A stretch of DNA of 64,000 nucleotides from Paracyclopina nana (taxonomy: Eukaryota > Arthropoda > Copepoda > Cyclopoida > Cyclopettidae), in contig JAGUCH010000005.1 of the NCBI GenBank assembly GCA_019096065.1, forward strand, positions 2,480,001 to 2,544,000. The letters run 5' to 3'. The notes below the pieces were generated by a model. It searched no databases. It worked only from the letters and a program-made list of their open reading frames with translations, and had not been told where the DNA came from. The position numbers and the translations under genes were made by a program. The stretch's first letter is position 1. Each line of letters opens with the position of its first letter. Positions 22,096-61,879 of this stretch are shown here, piece after piece.

Positions 22096-22187
22096 TCTGC
22101 TACTCGAGTGTACTCGTACATGTACATAGCTTCATTGTTCCTTGAGGAGGACACTTTTCCTCCAAGAAACTAGGGAATAGACGCAAA

Positions 22188-23650
22188 ATGGCCACAAAGT
22201 TACAAATCCTACAGAAGCTCATATTTGTCATGATCTTCTCCGTCAGCCTCTGCATCTTCATCAACCAAGTTATTGTGTGCGTTTCGAGATATTTACGGTA
22301 CGAGACGTCAATCACTCTTAATGTGCAAAGCACGGGCAGCACAGGTTTTCCCGCGTTTACCATTTGCCCAGATTATGCAGTGGCTTACAAGAGGGACTTT
22401 TTGGCTCAGTTTGGACTTACTCCGGATTCCATGAGAAATTTGGTGTTCCCCACCAAGACGGATATGTCCACTAGGGACTTCTTCTACAATGCCTCGCACT
22501 CTTTGGCTGAGCTAATTCAGGGAATCCAAATCAGGCTGATCAACAAGATGCCAGCCACTAATTTCTCGTCAATCTCCTATTTTAAGGACTTGGACAAGAA
22601 GAGCCCGTCTTTTTCTGACAAATTTCTGCCTTGGGACGACAGCCAATGGCGAAGACAGACGTACTTGATTTTTGGCCAATGTTTCACCTATGCTGTACCA
22701 GACTGGATACGCAGGCTGAAGGTGCTTTTTTCACCCTGTATTTGTGTCTCTCTGTTTGGCTTTTACCTTTTTCCATGCTAGATAAAGGACGTCTCGTTTT
22801 TCCTAAGAAAGGACACCTACATCTATGTACACCATGGGGGGCAATTTTTCAACTCTGACACAGATTCCAAAGTTCCTGGGAAAGTTGGAAAGGCCCTATT
22901 TTTGGATACAATCCACGATGTGAGAGATGTTAGGGACCAAAAATACTTCTTTTTAGGCACTATTTCCTGTTTTCCAGATCACCAATTCCAGGCCTAAATC
23001 TATTGTTGAAAAGAATTCAAAGCTGAAAGAGTCTTGTAGTGTGGAATTAAATGACAAATATGATGATTGTGTAATTGATGTAAGATACTACTGTAGATAT
23101 TGAAACAGTCCATATGTATTCATGAAAGTATTGATTTCATTGAAAGGCTGTTGATACGGAGTTTCTCAAGACTTTCGGGTGCGTCATGCCAATCTTCACA
23201 AAAAAGCCTAATGCTACTCAATGTGATTTACGTAATTTGGATGATTACGCAAGAGGAACTTATTACACTGCTTTCTACGGTATTCAAAATTCTTCTCGGA
23301 GCTTTCAATTGGTGCATGAATGCTGAAATATTGTAGAATTCCTGAATGATGGGGCAATGAATGATTACTGCACATTACCATGTGCAAGCATGGGGATTTA
23401 TTATGGATATCCCATTATAGCTGATAACCAAAATACCAATGAGGCCTACGTCAGGTTGTACTTCAAGAGCCAAATCAGCGTTCGAACAAGCCTGCCAGCA
23501 TACTCTGAAACCAGCCTCATGGGCGAAATTGGAGGATATTTGGGACTTTTACTCGGATTTTCCTTGCTAGATGTGACATCTATTATCAAGCATGTTTGCT
23601 TTTCAACTTACTTGATGGCTAATCAAAAAATTGGGTGGCTTACTAAATAA
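22188..23650 (+). CDS. DEG/ENaC (pickpocket-like) sodium channel subunit 1
   Basis: Amiloride-sensitive-type cation channel subunit of the plasma membrane, probably sensory or epithelial. Exons: 22188-22721, 22782-22919, 22978-23079, 23147-23279, 23337-23650, giving 406 residues. There are two membrane spans: TM1 at residues about 8-32 and TM2 near the C-terminus, with the family motif GEIGGYLGLLLGFSLLD. Between them is an extracellular loop with FPAFTICPDY after TM1 and paired cysteines (GQCFTYAVP, CTLPCASMGIYYGYP). The N-terminus before TM1 is only about seven residues and lacks the cytosolic His-Gly gating motif of most family members. An upstream exon may be missing, or disrupted by the repeat that ends 93 bp upstream. 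It is paralogous to the gene at 27027-28903. Confidence 0.88.
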
Positions 23651-27026: not shown

Positions 27027-28903
27027 ATGCAACCTGAAACACTTCATAAAGCGATATTTTCCCTTATTCTTGTTTGTAGCTTAGCCATCTTTGTCAGGCA
27101 AGTATACTACTGTATTTATAGATATTACGACGAGGAAACGAGCATCAATTTGGAGACATTAAGGTAATTTCAGGCTAACTGAGTGAGGAAGACGAGATCT
27201 TCATGCCTTTTTTTTCAGTGCCAGCCAAGCCAGATTTCCGGACCTCACTATTTGTCCGGATTATTTTGTATCCTACAAAAGTGCTATACTATCGAAATAT
27301 GGCCTTTCAGCGAATGACGTTCGTGAGCTTCATTTCCCCAAAAATGTCTCGTCTCTTGCGTTTTTTGATGAAGTGACGCATTCTTTAGAAGATATTGTGG
27401 CCAACATTTTCATACAAACTACGAGTAAACTCAGAGGGACTAATTTCACAGGGTTCAGCCTTTTTAATGAGAAGTACGAAAAGAAGGCTATTTCGCAGAT
27501 TCCAGAGTCTTTCAACGTTATGTACTTGCCAATGAACTCAAAAGATTGGAAGACTCAAAATTTCATTTTGTTTGGTAAATGCTACACTTACAGCTTGCCC
27601 GTTTGGATCAAGGCACTAAAAGTGAGGCTTATTATGCAAATACCCACAAAAAATTATTTTTGACCGATGAACTTTTTTAGGTACTTGATATAACGTTCAG
27701 GTTTCAAATCGATGCTCTCGTATATCTCCATCATGTTGGTCAATTTAGAAGCCCAGATTCGGATACAAAGGCTTCAATAGGCATTGGAAGAAATCTCTTT
27801 CTAGATACAAAACATGACGTATTATATTTTCTTATAAGGATACGAGCAGTACGCTAAATGATGAACATTGCTTTTACAGATCACGTTGCTCTGGCAAAAG
27901 AAAATTACGCCAACTGATGCTCATTACCAAAACTTTAACATTACATGCAGCGAAGAGTTGAATGAAAAGTTTGACGATTGCCTCGTCAATGTAAGTGTTT
28001 CAATTTCTACTGATTTTTATGCTACTGCAGTCTTGCATAGAAAAGATTAGGGGCGAACCTTGAATTCTTGCTATTAGAATTTGCTGCCAAAAGCTTGTTT
28101 TTGAACGTCATCAAGATAATCCATTTTGGTAAAATAATGTAACCTCTCAAAAATTTGCCAAAAAGTAGAGTGAATGAAACTATGTAGAATTAAGTATATT
28201 CGTTCTGGAAATGCATTCTCAAATCATCCTGGCAAAAAAGTCTTGAAACTTGTAGTATATAACAGATGTTTTAGAGATTATAACAGATATATTAAAATCT
28301 GCTTCTTTTGGAATAACATTACTATTTTTTTCATAGCAAATGCGCATGTGATAAAATATTCTTATAGGCTGTGGACTCAGAATTCATGAACAGCATTGGT
28401 TGCACTGCTCCATTTCTGACCAACATGCCTAGCCTGTCTTGCGAATTGGGAGCATTTGACGACGAAGATAGGGCCAGGTTCCGCAACGCATACAACGGTG
28501 AACCCGAGCATAATATATTATAAATATCAAAGTATTATCAGAGGTGCTTTTCCTTCTAGATTTTCTGTACGAAAGAGCCTTGGTTCAATATTGTCCGCAA
28601 GCCTGCGCAAGTATGAGTATCACGTTAGGATATCCCATAACATCAACTTCAAAAGTCAATGAAGCATTCATGAAGCTCTACTTCAAGAGTCAAGTGACCG
28701 TGCGAAAAAGCGTAATTACCTACTCTGGCACCAGTATGGTGGCAGAAATTGGAGGCTACATTGGCTTATTGCTGGGATTCTCACTCCTTGACTTGACCAA
28801 AATTATCAAACATTTATTCCTAACAACTTGTGATCATGCTTTTACAAATTGCAAGCGGCACTGTGACAACAAAAAAGATAAAACAATTTCACTTCTTTCC
28901 TAA
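27027..28903 (+). CDS. DEG/ENaC (pickpocket-like) sodium channel subunit 2
   Basis: Second member of the channel pair. Exons: 27027-27163, 27219-27621, 27681-27818, 27880-27990, 28368-28497, 28560-28903, giving 420 residues. The family features match the first copy: FPDLTICPDY after TM1, FGKCYTYSLP, FLDTKHD, ACASMSITLGYPI, and the TM2 motif AEIGGYIGLLLGFSLLDLTK. Intron positions correspond to those of 22188-23650, plus one extra intron early in the gene (27164-27218). This supports tandem duplication, with the TAX1BP1-like gene now in between. Like its paralogue it has a very short N-terminus (about 9 residues before TM1) and no His-Gly motif. The C-terminus is short and Lys/Asp-rich. Confidence 0.88.
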
Positions 28904-50589: not shown

Positions 50590-51635
50590 TAATTAGATGT
50601 TTCTTTCGGCGGCTAATCAGATTACCAAGAGACTAAGGATGAGAGAATTCTCTCCTTGTTCGATGCAAGTCAATTTTGATTTGAGCACAATGAAGTTTCT
50701 CACTTGATATTTTAAGCCTTATCTCTGTTATCGCCGCATTGAAAATACAATGTATATGGAAATGAGGTAATAGTCTGTCATCGTTCAGGCCAACAAAGTT
50801 AGGCTAAAAAGTTCAAGTTTCGCAAGCTTGAACAATTGACTCGTCATTGACTTGCCAAAGTGGCAAATTGGAAATCTAATAAATCAACGATAATTTAAGA
50901 GGGAATTCGGAAGATGCTCATAAAAACCATATGGTCTGTAATGACGTGACAACGAGTAGCGAGCCTTTCCCCAAAGATGGCGGAGGCCAAGACATGATTT
51001 GGAATTTCTAGTTGACGGGTACTAGATAAGACAGGAAGTCCTCTCAAGGACCCTTTCAAATTCCGCGATGTGTCCTTTTCAAAATTACCTTTGAGTGACT
51101 CCTGATTTTGCGACGATTTCTTTTTTCCTCGAAGGCTGCGAAAGCCTTGGCCTCAACGAGGCTGCTCAATTTCGGAGGACGAACTAGGATAGGAACGAGA
51201 GAGCAAGCAAGTAGATCTGACTCACTTTCCACTTGTTATGTCTGCACTCCTATGCGTCTTGAGTTCTTTTTCGGCTCTTTATTGCGAGAATACGCCACTT
51301 TGCGGAGTTTTTTACTAACAAAAAGCCAACATGTAACGGCTTTCCTGTATTGCTGTCATTCAGAGAAGAATTTGAGTAACCTCGGAAAATTAACTCATTT
51401 TAGCCATTATTTTAGCTTTAATATAATTTTTTCTCGACATTTATAGACTATTAATTAATTCAAAATCAGAAAAAGCTCTATCAAAGTTTTTGAATTCAGC
51501 TTGAGATTATATGCTCGGTTTTGATGATTCGATGTTACACTGTTTCATTTCGCGAATAAAAAAAGAAATAAAAACAAACTTTTTTGACGTGCGAAAAAAA
51601 TGAAATTAGCTTGAAGGTGGGAGCGAGATTTAACA
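50590..51635. other. Divergent promoter region
   Basis: The spacer between the divergent TMEM184 and nuclease genes. TGACGTGA (50942-50949, CRE-like) and AAGATGGCGGAGG (50974-50986, YY1/Pho-like) mark a likely housekeeping promoter for TMEM184. The frame at 51108-51446 has no domain and I do not regard it as a gene. Confidence 0.45.
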
Positions 51636-52955
51636 ATGTTGGTTGTTCAGCTCCTTTTGCCGCGATTTCTCGTCGTAGAGGTCGTGCTGTTTATCCACTT
51701 CATGCACGGGCAAGCCTGCAAATCCCTTGATCCACATATGAAGTTGAAGGACCTGATCACCAGTGATAACAGCCTCCAAGAACAGCCCAAAGTTAACGAC
51801 AACAACGAAGAATCGCACCTGTGTTATGTCCCCGTCGGAAATGGCACTCTTGACTTCGAACCATTAATCCTGGACTCTGAGTCTGGCCGCATTATCATGC
51901 CAATTCGCCATAATGGTGCGACTGTCATCCCAATTAAAGGCCAAGCCATGATCTCATGTCCTTCAGCGAGGTTGCCATCCATCGGTGACGGCTCCCAAAA
52001 TGTGATTGATGTCATTTGTTCAAATGTTCTTCACACCAAAGATGACCTCAGTACAATTATCCAGTACAAAGATCTCTCCTGCTCTCGATCCATTAGAGAG
52101 TCCGTTCAAGATGAAGGCCTGGCCTGTGGCCCTCCGGAACACGAGGGCAAAATTGTCCAGATTGGCTGGAAGGTTAGTGGTGCCTTTCTGCCACAAATCT
52201 CTGTTTGCCACGACAAGAGTCTTGATCATACCTATTTCACGAACCACACCATTTTTGGCCAGCATTTGGAGGCCAAATCCTCGGATTCCTCGAGGCCTAG
52301 CTTCAAAGAGGGTGGTGGAAAATTTTACTCCAAAAGCTCTGCTGACAATGCTTATAAGCAGACGAGTCAATCAGCAATTTTGTCCAAGATGGGCCTAGAA
52401 GGACTAGATTCGTACTTTGCCAAAGGCCACCTGTCACCAGACGCTGACTTTGTCCCCAAAGAGTGGCAAGATGCAACGTATTATTTCATGAATGCCGCCC
52501 CACAGTGGCAACCCTTCAACAACGGGAACTGGAAGCTGGTAGAAGCTGCTGTCCGAAAATTTGCTTTGGCTTCAAAAAGCAACCTCAAGGTTCAGACAGG
52601 AACCTTTGAAGGCCTTCAGTTGAAAGATGGAGAGCCTCCTCTGAGCCTTGGGAGGAATAACGCCATTCCTGTGCCATTATACTTGTGGAAATTAGTCGTA
52701 AACGAAGAAGCTAGCAAGGCCATAGCATTCGTGACAGTCAATCATCCAAAGCTGGATGATGGGGACATGTCTAGAAACAATATTTGCCCTGATGATCCAG
52801 AAGACCTTTGTGAGGCCCACGGTTGGCAGTTGCCAACTAGGAAAAAAGCAAACAAAGGCCTTCTCTATTGTTGCTCCTACCAAAGTCTCAAAAAGGCCAT
52901 TCCATGGATTGAGAAATTAGGGCCCAACATAGGCCTTCTTGACATTCCTTCCTAA
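51636..52955 (+). CDS. Secreted DNA/RNA non-specific endonuclease
   Basis: 439 residues, intronless. A signal peptide (residues ~1-25) is followed by a ~170-residue N-terminal region, then a DNA/RNA non-specific endonuclease (EndoG-like, beta-beta-alpha metal) domain. The catalytic block reads AKGHLSPDADF around residue 264, with the general-base His. The metal-binding Asn is expected in QWQPFNNGNWK. The usual arginine of the RGH motif is lysine here. Similar secreted nucleases in crustacean digestive gland and insect gut degrade dietary or extracellular nucleic acids. Eight or more cysteines fit an extracellular protein. Confidence 0.88.
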   Translation: MLVVQLLLPRFLVVEVVLFIHFMHGQACKSLDPHMKLKDLITSDNSLQEQPKVNDNNEESHLCYVPVGNGTLDFEPLILDSESGRIIMPIRHNGATVIPIKGQAMISCPSARLPSIGDGSQNVIDVICSNVLHTKDDLSTIIQYKDLSCSRSIRESVQDEGLACGPPEHEGKIVQIGWKVSGAFLPQISVCHDKSLDHTYFTNHTIFGQHLEAKSSDSSRPSFKEGGGKFYSKSSADNAYKQTSQSAILSKMGLEGLDSYFAKGHLSPDADFVPKEWQDATYYFMNAAPQWQPFNNGNWKLVEAAVRKFALASKSNLKVQTGTFEGLQLKDGEPPLSLGRNNAIPVPLYLWKLVVNEEASKAIAFVTVNHPKLDDGDMSRNNICPDDPEDLCEAHGWQLPTRKKANKGLLYCCSYQSLKKAIPWIEKLGPNIGLLDIPS

Positions 52956-53142: not shown

Positions 53143-54253
53143 ATGCTCAATCTGGCCCACTATGTTCAGTGCCACCCGAGTTTCAGGTAGTACATGAATT
53201 TTAAATAATCAGCCATTCCAATTCCTAAATACTTTCTTCAAATTATTCAGGTACCTCAGGGTTCGTCACAAGTCGACTGTCATCGTCGTCTTCCTCATTT
53301 TCCTGGCATTTTTCGTGCTCGCAGAGTTGATGCAAAAGCATCAAAGCCCCACAAAGGCAAAAACAGTCTCGACCCTCAAGGACGATGAGCTGGTCATGCT
53401 CAGAGCTCAGAATGGATATTTGAAGCATAAGCTGGCCAAATTGCAGGGCGGTCCCGTCAACACCAATGACAAGTCTGTGCCTACCATTTACGTCATTACA
53501 CCGACGTACAAGAGGCCAGTTCAAAAGGCCGAGCTGACTCGATTATGTCACACCTTTCTGCTGGTAGCAAACATCCACTGGGTGGTGATAGAGGATGCAA
53601 AAGTCACCTCACACTCCGTACGGGACCTACTCAACAATTGTGGGGTTGTCTACACCCTTTTGAACGAGCCCACTCCTCCTGAGCAAAAGCTGACTCCAGA
53701 TGAAAAACAGTGGTCAAAGCCCAGGGGAGTTCACCAACGCAATGCAGGCTTGCACTGGATCCGTGATGCCTTTAGAAACACTCCACCAAACCAAATTGAA
53801 GGTGTCATCTACTTTGCTGACGATGACAACACCTATAGCCTTGAACTGTTTCAAGAAATGCGAGACATTGAGAAAGTCGGGGTGTGGCCTGTGGGCCTCG
53901 TGGGAGGCCTGATGGTTGAACGTCCCAAAGTTGACACCAATGGAATAGTGACCGGTTGGGATGTGACCTGGTCCCCCCAACGACCTTTTGCCATTGATAT
54001 GGCCGGATTTGCAGTCAACGTCAAGCTCTTTTTGAGCAAACCAAAGGCCAAATTCGCATATAAGGTGAAACGAGGTTTTCAAGAGTCCGAGTTCTTGAGG
54101 CATTTGGTCACGATTGAGGAGCTCGAGGCCAAGGCTGACCTATGTACCAAAGTGTTGGTATGGCATACCAGGGCTGAAAAGGTCGACATTGCCCAGGAGA
54201 AACGTAGGCTGCAAAGTGGCCTTGAATTGTCAGATCATAACATGGACGTTTAG
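53143..54253 (+). CDS. GlcAT-I: Galactosylgalactosylxylosylprotein 3-beta-glucuronosyltransferase I
   Basis: Golgi enzyme adding glucuronic acid to Gal-Gal-Xyl, the last step of the proteoglycan linker needed for heparan and chondroitin sulfate. Exons: 53143-53186 and 53251-54253, giving 348 residues. It is a type II membrane protein: short cytosolic N-terminus, span VIVVFLIFLAFFVLAEL, a stem, then the GT43 domain (ITPTYKRPVQKAELTRL). The DDD metal/UDP motif is FADDDNTYS and the catalytic Glu lies in GFQESEFL. The start was chosen because only this ATG gives the right phase across intron 1. The gene converges on the next with 41 bp between stop codons. Confidence 0.95.
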
Positions 54254-55849: not shown

Positions 55850-56676
55850 CTTGCTTCAGCAAAATTTGGCTCTCAACTGAGACTTATTGCAGTCTCAAAC
55901 AAAGGCATATACGTATATCATCCAGTTGCTACATGACTTTTAGGGTGTGGCTTTCACCCCATTTTCCACTGGGTGATGGGGAAATTCTCCAAAGCATTTG
56001 CCTTGGAAAGCCTTGAAGTGCGAGATGAGTCAACCTGTGTGCTTACATGTTCAAGTCTCAGATGGAGCTTTGAAGTGCACCTGGGAATTCCAGAAAAAGC
56101 TCTCTTTGCTTCGAGGTGATTCCTCGAAAAACTACTACGTTCTTCTCCAGTATCTGCTAAATCTCTTGCCTCTTTCTTGCTAAGTGACCATTCGCCTCTG
56201 AGAGCTAGCATTTGCAGATTTCCTCAAAAATAAATCTCTTCTCAGTCTGGCAGTTCATAGCTCGGATAACTTTTCTTTAGACCTAAAAATGGAAATAGGG
56301 AATTATCGACTTTCTCCCGAATTTCTCAAATATAGCAATCATTTTCTCCAGTTGCTTGCCTTTTCTCCAAGACATTTGAGGAAATGTTCATTTTTTGCAG
56401 TTTTTACGAATTTTGGCACGAGGCGCCGTCAAAGCCGACAAAAACGCGATATATTTCTATAGATTAATTTTACACGGCGCAATTCTACGCATGGAAGTAA
56501 ATGCTAAGATACTTGTTTCTAGATTTTGCGCCATGAGTTGAAATAATGGTGGTGCTTCATACTTACAGTCAGAATAATTTATCATTTACATAATTGTATG
56601 TAATGACCGCATTTGATTACGAAATTATATTTTTGTCAAGTGCACACAAATGGAGTGAAAAACAAGCAGATCAAAC
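55850..56676. other. Intergenic, no gene seen
   Basis: Spacer between the minus-strand Ig gene and the plus-strand PPxY cluster, so it should hold both promoters. No clear TATA box was found for either. Confidence 0.4.
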
Positions 56677-57311
56677 ATGTACAATTACTATATTACTGGC
56701 CTAGTTATTGCTGGCTTCATACTTTTGTCATATGCGCTCTACTGGTGTCTTAGATGTATTGGTTACGCAAATACGGATCTGGAAGGAAATAGTACAAATA
56801 TTGATGATGTTGATGGAACGCCAGAAATGGAGTAAGTGCTTTTCTGAAATACTCTCCACATATTTTACGTCAAGATTGTTAGAGCATTTAAGAAAGCTTT
56901 TAATTTTGTCGAATAAGGCATATTTCACTTTATTTACCGTTTTCGCTTTTAGCCTCCTTATTACATTAGGGAGACAAATTGTCCAGTCATTTTGCATCAT
57001 AAACTATTCAAAAATGTACGTAGATTTTCTCTTACCTTGAAATCTTGGAATTCACAAAAATCTATAGATAGCTTCTAAAATCACATTTAGTATATGAATA
57101 ACCTTTTAAAAAAGCAAATGTTTTAATATATCCAATATCTAGGCGTCGAAGTATTTCAAGTCACAGCCAAGACAGTATTCCACCAAGTCAACCTCATTGG
57201 ACTAATGCGGCCTACTTTTGTACTGATGAACCGACTTTTGACAGTAGAAGATGCGAAACTCCACCACCATCCTATGAAACGCTATATAGCAGTTCAAATA
57301 CCACTAAATAA
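56677..57311 (+). CDS. PPxY mini membrane protein A
   Basis: Exons 56677-56831 and 57143-57311, 107 residues. After a ~6-residue N-terminus comes one membrane span (ITGLVIAGFILLSYALYW), juxtamembrane cysteines (WCLRC), and an acidic cytoplasmic region. The phase-2 intron follows, then a Ser-rich tail ending TPPPSYETLYS. There is no cleavable signal peptide. Charge distribution suggests N-outside, C-cytosolic. PPxY motifs bind WW domains of Nedd4-type ubiquitin ligases, as in Drosophila Commissureless; that role is inferred. AATAAA lies ~25 bp past the stop, so this member may be a separate transcript. Confidence 0.72.
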
Positions 57312-57463
57312 ATTAAAAAGCAGGCCCAGCTAGTGATGAATAAAAAAGTACAATATGCTCTAGTTCTCACTCGATTGCATTATACTTTTCATTAAGTCTC
57401 AATTAGTCACTAAACTGAAGCAAGTGCATTCGGATCTAGTTTTTTTTCAAAGTGTCATGGAAA

Positions 57464-57951
57464 ATGGTGAAAAGTGACCTTTTGCAAGGCTTAGTTGCCC
57501 TAGGTGTGCTCCTGGTTTTGCTATTTTTCTGGCTCTACACACTTTGCTGCAGGAAGAGGCAATCCTCGGATTCTGACGTGGAATCAGAAACGACCAGGTA
57601 GAAAAAAGCATGGAAAACGCGCGTGTCTAATGCAATAAGCATATGCGACGACATTGATTTTTCCTCAACAAAACACCCAAATTAAGTTCTACTAATTGTT
57701 TTTCACACATTTTCAGCGATGGCGACAGCATTTTCATTGTGTCAGATGCAAATGCTACTGGAGCAATAATCAGGACAGAATTAAATAATAATGGTGAAAG
57801 TCCCGAAGATGAAAGCAACAACTATATAGTGACGCTAGATAATCACGAGTATCTAGTGAGCAATGTTTTGCCCAATGGTAAAACAGTTTTGGTGCCAGTG
57901 AGAAGTGTGACTCCGCCACCATCGTATAAATCCCTTTTTGGCGAAGATTGA
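57464..57951 (+). CDS. PPxY mini membrane protein B
   Basis: Exons 57464-57597 and 57717-57951, 122 residues. Short N-terminus MVKSDLL, membrane span (GLVALGVLLVLLFFWLY), then CC and a basic stop-transfer (CCRKRQ). The phase-2 intron after the acidic SDSDVESE stretch is at the same place as in A, C and D. The tail has YLVSNVLPNGKTVLVPVR and ends PPPSYKSLFGED. The KTVLVPVR block is shared with protein D (RTVIVPVM). No polyadenylation signal is visible before gene C. The outer ATG at 57455 opens a frame that stops after six codons and would act as a minimal uORF. Confidence 0.72.
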
Positions 57952-58045
57952 CCCACTATTTGCAAATTAATTGCATAGTTGTATGACCGCAAATTATCTA
58001 TATAGCAGCATCGTGATTGCAGTCATCCGTCACTCAAATCAAAGA

Positions 58046-58614
58046 ATGTCAGGCTTGAGTGGCAACAACATTTATGCAATCATTTTCAAAATCATCGGAG
58101 TTGCCTTGCTGCTCATTATAGTGCTTTGGTGTATCTACAAAGTGCTAAAATGTGTGATGAAGGACAAAAAAGGAGGGGAAAACGACGACTTACAACCAAC
58201 CTCAGATCTTAGGTAAAAATTCCTACCTTTACTTATGATATCATTTTAACATAGTACTATTATACAAAAAAGTTGTTTTGACTCAATAGGGAAGACCAAT
58301 TTGTGCCTAATGCGCCTGAGTTGGATGGCATAGATCCTGAAGAAGCCCAAGAAAGGCTCTTAGGCGTGGAAGGACAATCCGAATCTGCTGATAGATCTAT
58401 TGAATTAGATCAATCTGCAGAACTGGATTTGGAGAGCCACTGCCAGTTAAGATCTGCTAATCATAGATCTGTTAATTTGGAGCCTTTTGCTGGCGTGAAA
58501 GTCACCTCTCGTCCTCCTTCATATAGGACTTTATTCGGAGAAAACGAAGAGCCATGTTATCACCCAGCCAGCATGCCACAACATGTTATCATACAAGTTA
58601 TCTGTGAAAAGTAG
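58046..58614 (+). CDS. PPxY mini membrane protein C
   Basis: Exons 58046-58212 and 58290-58614, 163 residues; an in-frame ATG at 57983 would add 21. Membrane span IIFKIIGVALLLIIVLWCI is followed by a cysteine- and lysine-rich border (KVLKCVMKDKKG). The phase-2 intron leads into a long acidic tail (DGIDPEEAQERLLG). RPPSYRTLFGENEE is followed by an extra ~20 residues, so the PPSY is not terminal here. Its stop codon is only seven bases before the start of gene D, and no polyadenylation signal lies between them. Confidence 0.7.
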
Positions 58615-58621
58615 AGTGAAA

Positions 58622-59066
58622 ATGCCTCGTTCCATGGACAAAGAATTTTTAGACACAATCAAAATCATCGGCGTTTTTCTGCTCATCATACTTGTGATTT
58701 ATTGGTGCTTCAAGTGTGCAAATACCAGGCCCGAATCAAACAGAAGACCAAGTTTGGATCCCTACCATATAAGGTACTTGCATGGGTACATTCATTAAGG
58801 TTTTTAGCTAATGTTGTGACAGGCCGAGGCCCGGAGTGTTTGTGGTTCCTGGAATGAATGGAACGTCACCATTAGGGCCTATAGCAGAAGTGAACAGAGA
58901 TTTGGACTATTATGGCTCTGATGGCTACGGAAACCTTTTAGTGACCACCCAAGACCTGCAGCAACTCTATGTAGTGAACCAGGCTGACAACCAAAGGACT
59001 GTCATTGTTCCGGTGATGAGAAATCCTAGCCCACCTCCGTCATACAACTCGTTGTACAATTTATAG
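58622..59066 (+). CDS. PPxY mini membrane protein D
   Basis: Exons 58622-58773 and 58823-59066, 131 residues. Short N-terminus, membrane span with IKIIGVFLLIILVIYWCF (very similar to protein C's KIIGVALLLIIVLWC), cysteines CFKC and a basic border, then the phase-2 intron. The tail contains Tyr-rich DLDYYGSDGYGN and ends SPPPSYNSLYNL. AATAAA at about 59111 is the first polyadenylation signal after gene A's, so B, C and D may share a transcript. It converges on the zinc-finger gene, with 62 bp between stops. Confidence 0.72.
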
Positions 59067-59128
59067 AATTAGATGATTTGTTGCATTGTATTTTGGAGGA
59101 ATTTGGCAATAAACTCTACACGGCATAT

Positions 59129-59627
59129 TTAATCAGACAAGAAAGAGAGGTCGCCTTCATCAAAACGGACGCATGATGGGAAGTCATCGAAATGCTGGCT
59201 TAATTCCTCATGCTTTGAAAACTTCTCCTTACAAGTGGAACATCGGTAGGAAAGGATGTCATCAAGGCTCATGTTGGCTACATCTGAATCTTTCATAATA
59301 ATTTCGGATGGCTTTTCTATTGTGGACCCGTAGTTTATAGCTTTGTTGCACAACGAGCTTTCTCGTTCTTCTTGGTTTTCGAGCACATCTTCGTTGAGGC
59401 TTTTGAATCGTTTGGCAGTTCTGCGCAATTGGCCATCTTTAGCAGGCATGAACTCTTTATCCAGGATGGAATTGCAGGTATGCAGCTTTTCGCCTTCCCT
59501 TGACGGAAAAACCACCAGGCACCGTTTGCATCTAATCTCAGCCGAAGAAGTTTGGAGCTTATTTTGAGATGAGGCTCTTCTCTTCCGAAAACTTTCTCCT
59601 CCCAACTGAGTGCAGCTGGCCTTGTTC
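59129..59627 (-). other. Second alternative terminal exon of the zinc-finger gene
   Basis: Begins after acceptor TTCCAG (ending at 59628) and starts with one base completing a phase-2 codon. It therefore joins directly to exon 61472-60507, which ends in phase 2. No ATG in this frame precedes it, so it is not an independent gene. Its domain order repeats that of the exon at 60402-59724, pointing to exon duplication. Confidence 0.65.
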
Positions 59628-61879
59628 CTGGAAGGAAATTTTTCATGAATGAGTTAATTAGGAGAGGTAATAGGCTTTTCAGGAAAGTTTAGAAATGGAA
59701 TATTTCATATATTTCAACGCTGATTACATCATAGCACTCATACAGTACAGATTAGTTTTGAGGTGAGCGTTCAGCTGCCGCTTGCTCATTTGCTTGGAGC
59801 AACCTTGGCATGTTTCAATTGAGTCATCTTCAGTATCTTCTTCGGAAACATTTTTGTCACTCACAGCTGCCTCCTCTTCTTCTTCCTCCTCTGAAACATT
59901 TTTGTCACTCACAGCTGCCTCCTCTTCTTCCTCCTCCTCAGATACATTTTTGTCACTCTCAGGCCCCTCTTCGTCGTCTTCGTCAGACTCCAAGAACTTT
60001 TCAATATCCTCAGGATTTGTTCTTTTTATAATAGGCTCAATTGCACTGATGGCATGATTTGGCTCAGCATGTCTCTTTCTAGTTGACGTGGCTGGCTTTC
60101 CCTGATCTCCATTCATAGCCAGAAGAACACACTCATGCAAAATTAGCATTTCTTTGGATGGAAACACAGTGTTACAATCGAGGCACCGAAACTCCATTGC
60201 TGTGGATCTGAGAGTTTTGCCCAGATCCAATTTGGACTTGTCAATTCCATCTTCGTACAGGCAGTCATTAATGACTCCGTGTACATTGCCGACGTGACGA
60301 GTGAACTTTTGCGAGCTTCGGCCATCAAAAGTCCTACTGCAAAAGGGACATTTCCAACCAGCGCCATTTTTCGACCCTGCATACTTTTCTAAGATGAGTT
60401 GGCTAAAAGTAGAGAAAGAAAGATGCTTTCTTCAAAAGTGATGCTTTTGGAAAAATGAGCTAGGATGGAAAAGTTCCTCTACTGAACAAATAAATGACCC
60501 GCTTACCTGTAATGATCGCAAAGGTGGGCGTTGAAAGGCTCGTTGACGACTTGATTGCATTTGGGACACATCAGTCCTTTGGCGGTCACATTGGACACAC
60601 TTGGCTTGTCCACCTGATGCTGAGGCTCTTCTACACTGCTGTTGTCTCTCCATGATTGGGAACTAGCCATGGAAGTCTCACTAGCAATCGATCCGTTGCT
60701 TTCAATTTTCAAGGAAAACTCTTTGGGGTAAAGCATTCTCGTCACGTCCGTCATGTCTTCAGCCTTTTCTTTCATAAATGCCTTGTATAATCGCCCATGA
60801 TCAATTGCATAATGTTTGGCCAACTCTCGTGAGGTAGACAAAATTTGCTCACAAGTCTTTTTGATACATTTCACTGGGTAGCTGCGAACCTTGACCCACG
60901 TTTCAAAGAACTTTTGATAATGAGCATAAGCGTAGTGCAACTTTAAATTGTTGGGATGGCTGAAGATCAGCTCAAACTTGCACAGTTTGCACTTGAGAGG
61001 CTCAACATTGGGATCGAGTGGGCCCAATTCCAGCTCACATTTGTGCTGCATCTGAGCCTCGAGGGAGGTGAACCCACTTGCACATGGAAGACACCGGTAT
61101 TCAGCATTGATGACAGAAGGTGGGTAGTTTGTCAAGTCTTCAGAGCGAACATTGAGTCCTGAAGCTTTTGGGCCCTTGCAGACATGTTTCTTCAGCCCTA
61201 TTTTGACTTTAAACGATCGGCCGCAGGTTTCACAGTTGAGAGGGGTATTTTTGTCCGAATCAACGTCTTTCAAATTAGTCACTTCTTTAATCTTTTCCTC
61301 TACGCGATCTCGGCAAGATTTGAAATGGGTTTTGAGCTCCGGCAATGTGCGCATCACTTTGGGACAAATGGGACATGAAACATCTTCGTGACTGCTATTG
61401 CTACTCCCCACATCTGGACTGATGACTTTTAGACCAGAGATGAAGGATTTGATGAGAGCTTCTCTGTGGCCTCTGCAAATGGGGGAAAAAGAAATAAACC
61501 ACAAATCCGATTTTCAATTTAAATGGACTTACTCTAAATGTGTGAGGAACTGATTTCGGCCAAAAAATTGGACGATGCAGAAATCGCATGTGAAAAAGGA
61601 CTTTTTCACAGTGACTCTGTCCGTGCCAACATTCAGCTCACTTAGGACTTTCACCATGAGATCGTGTTCAGCTTGGTTCTCGGCTTCCACAGGCTTGTTC
61701 TGGAGCGCCAAGTTGACTTTCTTCACAGTTTTGAGCAAGTTGGGCGATTCTAAGCGAAGTTGAACGTCCACGCTATTTGTCACCGGATTCACCGAAAATT
61801 TGACGCTGCTGTTTTCTTGGCTCATGCGGAAGAGCACAGCACAATCCACAAGCACTTTTTCAATGCGGCTGTTTTGCAT
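59129..61879 (-). CDS. Multi-zinc-finger nuclear protein with alternative last exons
   Basis: Exons 61879-61533 and 61472-60507 join in phase 2 to either 60402-59724 (663 residues) or 59627-59129 (603 residues). Common exons carry a ~115-residue N-terminal region, CDFCIVQFF, CPICPKVMRTLPELKTHF, CETCGRSFKVKIGLKKHVC, CLPCASGF and CKLCKFEL, and a final CPKCNQVV...C. These are C2H2/C2HC fingers, several atypical. The first last exon adds CPFCSRTFDG..H..H, FRCLDCNTVFPS...HEC, acidic repeats and CQGCSKQMSKRQLNAHL. The second repeats the same finger order (RCKRCLVVFPSREG..HTC, CSTCKEKFSKHEELSQHF). It is probably a DNA- or chromatin-binding factor; I do not recognise an orthologue. Polyadenylation of the distal form may use ATTAAA at its stop. 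Confidence 0.8.
59841..59964 (-). repeat. Acidic coding repeat
   Basis: Three tandem copies of a ~48-bp unit within the exon 60402-59724, each encoding SDKNVSE followed by a run of glutamates and, in two copies, AAV. Nearly identical units suggest recent slippage expansion. Confidence 0.85.

Follow-up and report, generated by a model that had tools for sequence, protein, structure and literature searches.

Four tandem two-exon genes for short single-span proteins with a PPSYxxL(F/Y) tail motif, candidate membrane PY adaptors, in Paracyclopina nana

Four two-exon genes (G1 to G4) lie head to tail on the plus strand at positions 56677-59066 of the window, the stretch of 64,000 nucleotides of Paracyclopina nana DNA that was analysed. 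Judged as a sequence feature, the cluster is a real, small and strongly diverged tandem family. A single span and a PY motif occur on the same protein in all four predicted products, which is the anatomy of a membrane PY adaptor. On these predicted features the best reading is that the four proteins are of the membrane-anchored PY adaptor kind by anatomy, and that by the features tested they belong to no named family.

Gene models were re-derived from the raw sequence. Four adjacent two-exon genes, each interrupted by a phase-2 intron, had been proposed in a preliminary description of this DNA, and complete models, each with its own ATG and stop codon, were recovered at the positions given in Table 1. 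All four introns are of the GT-AG type and in phase 2, with lengths of 311, 119, 77 and 49 nt in G1 to G4. Donor sites were ranked with a consensus matrix, and those of G1 to G4 took ranks 1, 8, 2 and 3 among the 143 GTs at 56300-59200; the acceptor sites are weaker, at ranks 20, 7, 19 and 31 among 179 AGs by an ad hoc score. A codon-usage score was trained on 3378 codons from twelve other ORFs of the window, which were family-checked only in part. The modelled frame scored highest of the three plus-strand frames in 8/8 exons, by a very narrow margin in G1 exon 2 and G4 exon 1, and highest of all six frames in 6/8; the score penalises stop codons, and these account for part of the result. The exon structure, splicing and expression of G1 to G4 are predictions from sequence.

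Table 1. Positions in the window of the four predicted genes, their exons and the poly(A)-signal-like AATAAA sites
Feature	Position	Strand	Remarks
G1	56677..57311	+	predicted protein 107 aa
G1 exon 1	56677..56831	+	membrane span after a short N-terminus, WCLRC; donor GT 56832, phase 2
G1 exon 2	57143..57311	+	tail carrying TPPPSYETLY
AATAAA x2, G1 end	57307..57344	+	poly(A)-signal-like; at 57307 (overlaps stop codon) and 57339
G2	57464..57951	+	predicted protein 122 aa
G2 exon 1	57464..57597	+	membrane span, CC followed by basic RKR; donor GT 57598, phase 2
G2 exon 2	57717..57951	+	tail with TPPPSYKSLFGED; blocks common to G4 (IFIV..NAT; YIVTLD..YLVSN..TVLVPV)
G3	58046..58614	+	predicted protein 163 aa
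G3 exon 1	58046..58212	+	membrane span, inner border rich in lysine; donor GT 58213, phase 2
G3 exon 2	58290..58614	+	tail with SRPPSYRTLFGEN and C-terminal extension, 29 residues beyond PPSY
G4	58622..59066	+	predicted protein 131 aa
G4 exon 1	58622..58773	+	membrane span, WCFKC; donor GT 58774, phase 2
G4 exon 2	58823..59066	+	lysine-free tail, blocks common to G2, end SPPPSYNSLYNL
AATAAA after G4	59108..59113	+	none on + strand from 57339 up to here

An N-terminal membrane span, a C-x-x-C pair at its inner border and a PPxSY-type motif in the tail had also been claimed for each protein. The span was found once per protein in 4/4 (best 19-aa Kyte-Doolittle mean 1.9-3.0), and the part before it consists of 4-12 residues with 0 cysteines in all four. 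Exactly one PPxY is present in each protein, always as PPSYxxL(F/Y) and near the C-terminus, with 11, 7, 29 and 6 residues beyond PPSY in G1 to G4. The cysteine claim stood in part: inner cysteines are present in 4/4 proteins, but the C-x-x-C spacing was found in G1 (WCLRC) and G4 (WCFKC) and not in G2 (CC) or G3 (C-x6-C). The tails are variable, being net acidic in G1-G3 and balanced in G4, and their lysines number one in G1 (the last residue), three in G2, seven in G3 and none in G4. N-glycosylation sequons are present in the tails of G1, G2 and G4. The basic residues on the two sides of the span (before/after) number 0/1, 1/3, 0/5 and 3/3 in G1 to G4, from which the tail is probably inside in G2 and G3 and weakly so in G1; the charges of G4 favour neither orientation. 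A structure predicted for the G4 exon-2 tail from a two-sequence alignment was of low confidence (mean pLDDT 55.6), and the strands that it draws over the block shared with G2 are given no weight here.

The four proteins were compared by pairwise BLASTP without low-complexity filter or composition correction, which gave E 3e-12 for G2-G4; in the remaining five pairs E was 2e-4 to 6e-6. After shuffling of segments in place, the observed score was reached in 0 to 2 of 1000 shuffles, and with the motif kept intact in 0 to 12 of 1000. Outside the span and motif, the G2-G4 pair alone was significant (0/1000), the observed score of the other five pairs being reached in 183 to 815 of 1000 shuffles. 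Two extra tail blocks are common to G2 and G4 (F-x-V...N-x-T...G-x-I and T-x-D...V-x-N...N...T-V-x-V-P-V), and the placing of these two predicted proteins in one family is well supported; G1 and G3 are placed in the same family by their span, motif, intron phase and neighbourhood. The claim of a small tandem family is backed by the pairwise BLAST, the segment-wise shuffles, the intron phase (4/4) and the invariant motif. The contrary case, that the units are fragments of one larger known gene, was checked and rejected, since every unit begins with an ATG and ends with a stop codon of its own; no Pfam family was over cut-off.

The motif PPSYxxL(F/Y) as such is not enriched genome-wide, since a degenerate pattern for it, which lets in some codons besides those of Ser and Leu, gave 30 matches in 91.95 Mb versus 49 for the reversed control. 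A looser PPxYxx(L/F)(F/Y) pattern gave 121 matches genome-wide versus 197 for its reversed control. Four of the 30 matches fall in the cluster, within 1.8 kb and on one strand. The probability of this clustering, calculated from the other 26 matches, was 2e-16 per stretch (near the arithmetic limit) and 2e-11 over the genome, both values being post hoc and the paralogues non-independent events. The clustering of the four motifs is not chance.

Other carriers of the motif were viewed in 20 stretches around PPxYxx(L/F)(F/Y) matches, taken from the 100 of the 121 that were listed, and 12 of the 26 PPSYxxL(F/Y) matches outside the cluster were viewed in context. The check for a span together with the motif took in 26 loci (25 places), and in three of these (L044, L053 and L065) a span (19-aa mean > 2.2) and PPxYxx(L/F)(F/Y) were found in one ORF. 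These three were rejected as relatives of the cluster: outside the motif there is no resemblance, two being receptor-like and one having a different PY pair (by eye). L044 (C7:6500446) and L053 (C2:8365992) are receptor-like single-span ORFs with LDLa-like cysteines by eye and the tails PPSYDSLF and PPPAYNSLF, respectively. L065 (C4:5781179-5785179, minus strand) is a single-span ORF in which the double motif PPNYVDLY...LPSYTQAV follows a KCCRKRK border; a Pfam match at E <= 0.01 was not found for it, and its paired PPxY and LPSY are nearer to the Commissureless pattern than is the four-gene cluster. The presence of similar motifs in these single-span ORFs suggests that the motif is a common tool in this genome and the cluster one of its users. 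A PPPSYxx(L/F) pattern gave 30 matches, 27 of them outside the cluster, and the cluster architecture was not found in the five of these 27 that were viewed. These five were set aside individually: L085 has a hydrophobic stretch 300 nt ahead of the motif, but it reads like the reverse strand of acidic coding sequence; L083 and L084 have the motif within a 12-codon frame bounded by stops; L086 is without a span; and in L055, a terminal exon, the nearest span is some 1060 nt upstream.

The earlier statement that no named family has this architecture was borne out within Pfam, PHROGs, PDB and IMG/VR. For none of the four proteins was a Pfam family over cut-off; Tweety (PF04906) was rejected at 16.2 bits against a cut-off of 31.8, the match being to G2 only and covering the span with the residues that directly follow. 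Searches with the four proteins returned nothing below E 0.047 in PHROGs and nothing below E 1.6 in PDB, and among the 7 pattern matches from one scan of IMG/VR no relative was confirmed. For want of a relative in PHROGs or in that IMG/VR scan, a viral or phage gene was rejected. BLAST of the protein queries against their own genome (92 Mb, low sensitivity) found no further copies of the cluster, the matches being the queries' own exons and reciprocal G2/G4 exon-2 matches (E 8.5e-4 and 1.4e-3). The G3 query gave three weak matches (E 0.11, 1.2 and 6.0), and in the two of these that were inspected a PY motif was not found in the matching ORF. This absence of other copies is weak evidence, because the searches recover G1 and G3 neither mutually nor from G2 and G4. 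A description of the four-gene family was not found among the top-ranked literature matches. The family was not found in the libraries searched, but its probable way of working is familiar. From this set it also seems that short, diverged genes such as these can slip past profile libraries.

Several named membrane proteins with PY motifs were compared with the four. In Drosophila the comm genes also form a cluster, and Commissureless (Comm) has a longer N-terminal part. Commissureless is a short transmembrane protein with cytosolic PY motifs that acts as a substrate adaptor for Nedd4, these motifs being required for its effect on Robo1 ubiquitination (PMC12101832). Its homologues are said to be absent outside insects (PMC12101832, PMC5578492). 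Comm has two PY motifs, PPCY and LPSY (GLPSYDEAL), whereas G1-G4 have one PPSYxxL(F/Y) each, in 4/4 (PMC12101832, PMC5578492). The Commissureless profile PF15957 gave no match at E <= 1 to any of the four proteins; the search of the genome with this profile was empty, and the controls of the same search were likewise silent. Ndfip and Bsd2 have several spans and several PY motifs. They are described as membrane PY adaptors of Nedd4-family ligases, the kind proposed here for the four, and their profile PF10176 gave no match at E <= 1 to any of the four; a separate Ndfip-type match (PF10176) is present in the same genome at C3:6.12 Mb. The subunits of the ENaC channel cross the membrane twice and have a large outside domain. 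They share with the four an extended PY motif, PPxYxxL, close to the C-terminus (PMC2582799).

The STMC6/Shisa-like proteins (Shisa, CYYR1, WBP1, VOPP1) and TMEM207 have a single span, aromatics at the membrane and a proline-rich PPxY tail, as described in PMC6125347. The cysteine-rich outside domain, with conserved cysteines ahead of the span, by which the STMC6/Shisa-like group is defined (PMC5578492, PMC6125347) is absent here, there being 0 cysteines before the span in 4/4; TMEM207 is likewise without a canonical cysteine-rich domain and is likened to the group by description, not by sequence (PMC6125347). CYYR1 recruits WWP1 to late endosomes via PPxY, and of its three PY motifs the deletion of one hardly changes binding, while the deletion of two abolishes it (PMC11399591). 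The PRRG proteins are transmembrane proteins with a PY tail, and PRRG4 is reported to bind a Nedd4 WW domain (PMC5578492); a Pfam match to their Gla domain was not found at E <= 1 in G1-G4, in which the N-terminus has 4-12 residues. PY-motif membrane proteins of herpesviruses alter the location and amount of Itch (PMC5849660). Membrane PY adaptors with unlike sequences are known from several groups, and this strongly diverged tandem set, with proteins of 107-163 aa in which PPSYxxL does not vary, would offer a very small example for dissecting adaptor specificity by swapping of parts (span, tail block, lysine content).

Genome-wide, WW domains gave 39 matches at E <= 0.01, of which 31 were over cut-off, on 8 of 10 contigs. 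The protein behind one WW array alone was named. This is the locus at C4:2.99 Mb (L071, C4:2990000-2999999), in which successive ORFs match C2 (8e-14), four WW (1e-53) and HECT (2e-30), and which by these predicted domains is a C2-4WW-HECT ligase. The extended PY motif PPxYxxL of ENaC binds Nedd4 ligases (PMC2582799), and from this extended motif and the presence of the C2-4WW-HECT ligase in the genome a Nedd4 link of the four tails may with good reason be inferred.

That the four proteins recruit or activate a Nedd4-family ligase at the membrane is given an even chance. The four genes would encode short single-span proteins that have hardly any part outside and whose cytosolic tail closes with the extended PY motif; the tail PPSYxxL(F/Y) would bind the WW domains of Nedd4-family HECT ligases (C2-WW-HECT), the bound ligase would be brought to or activated on the membrane, and other membrane proteins kept close to the span or to the variable tail would be ubiquitinated and pass to endosomes. 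A tail-in orientation, WW binding, an adaptor rather than a substrate role and any difference in cargo among the four are what we infer. In favour of a recruiter, PPSYxxL is invariant in 4/4 while the rest of the tail diverges, and basic residues are more numerous after the span than before it in G1, G2 and G3, which points to a tail-in orientation, weakly for G1. The conserved leucine favours a Nedd4-type WW partner, and the lysine-free tail of G4 and that of G1, with lysine only as the last residue, fit a recruiter better than a substrate; neither is proof. The predicted architecture is also similar to that of Commissureless, the Nedd4 substrate adaptor (PMC12101832), and of CYYR1, the recruiter of WWP1 (PMC11399591). 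Against a recruiter, the tail sequons of G1, G2 and G4 equally suit a lumenal tail, G3 with its seven tail lysines is a possible substrate, and an Ndfip-type gene is already present in the genome. Each protein also has a single PY motif versus two in Comm and three in CYYR1 (PMC12101832, PMC11399591), and PPxY binds non-ligase WW proteins too (PMC6125347).

It is unlikely that the four are instead clients, that is, small membrane proteins removed by Nedd4-type ligases via PY in the manner of ENaC subunits, with their real job in the span (e.g. as a channel or receptor partner). PPxYxxL is a removal signal in ENaC (PMC2582799) and the lysines in the tails of G2 and G3 would suit such a fate, but the G4 tail has none and that of G1 only its last residue, and the 4-12 residues before the span are too short for a receptor. 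Less likely still, the tails would bind other WW proteins (WWOX, Yorkie-like and others) and tether them at membranes, much as WWOX is tethered by TMEM207 and VOPP1; the number of WW matches in the genome and the example of TMEM207, a single-span PPxY protein that binds WWOX (PMC6125347), are set against the conserved leucine three residues after the tyrosine, which belongs to the extended ENaC/Nedd4-ligase motif (PMC2582799).

The stop-to-next-ATG gaps are 152 nt (G1-G2), 94 nt (G2-G3) and 7 nt (G3-G4). On the plus strand AATAAA is found only at the G1 end and after G4 (Table 1); ATTAAA is present at 57312, after the stop of G1, and at 57780, within the G2 coding exon. All forward joins of an exon 1 to an exon 2 (10/10) keep the reading frame and meet one stop only, the terminal one. 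The open joins, the 7-nt gap and the placement of AATAAA make a shared transcript possible, though unproven. It is quite improbable, however compatible with the functional readings, that G2, G3 and G4 are one transcription unit giving a polycistronic mRNA or exchangeable span and tail exons: the open joins, the short gaps and the lack of a plus-strand AATAAA between 57339 and 59108 would fit, whereas equal phase follows from duplication alone and genes may use non-canonical poly(A) signals. The faintest of the readings is a modular kit, in which one unit of at least G2-G4 would have its phase-2 span and PY-tail exons combined alternatively in the forward direction or read polycistronically, in a family without known relatives; if true, a small locus would supply ligase adaptors as a set, their membrane and tail parts being interchangeable. 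Also very improbable is that the motif is mainly a YxxL clathrin-adaptor sorting signal (YETL, YKSL, YRTL, YNSL) with the prolines secondary, since YxxL lies inside the motif in 4/4 but PPS is equally invariant, and a plain YxxL signal has no need of PPS.

The upstream neighbours of the cluster in the window are a DNA/RNA non-specific endonuclease ORF (51615-52955, plus strand, PF01223) and a glycosyltransferase family 43 ORF (53198-54253, plus strand, PF03360), which could serve as synteny anchors. Further upstream, a piece of a DEG/ENaC channel gene was found at 22146-22781 (plus strand, PF00858, E 4e-9), and 27187-27663 (plus strand) resembles such a piece by eye, a Pfam match at E <= 0.01 not being found; the presence of a DEG/ENaC piece in the same window as proteins with an ENaC-type PY motif is probably a coincidence. 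At 59845-59987 a zinc-finger ORF of the minus strand has a 48-bp tandem repeat of 3 copies within an acidic stretch. Arrays of TTAGG are dense (5073 and 4205 matches versus 0 for the reversed control), which fits an arthropod.
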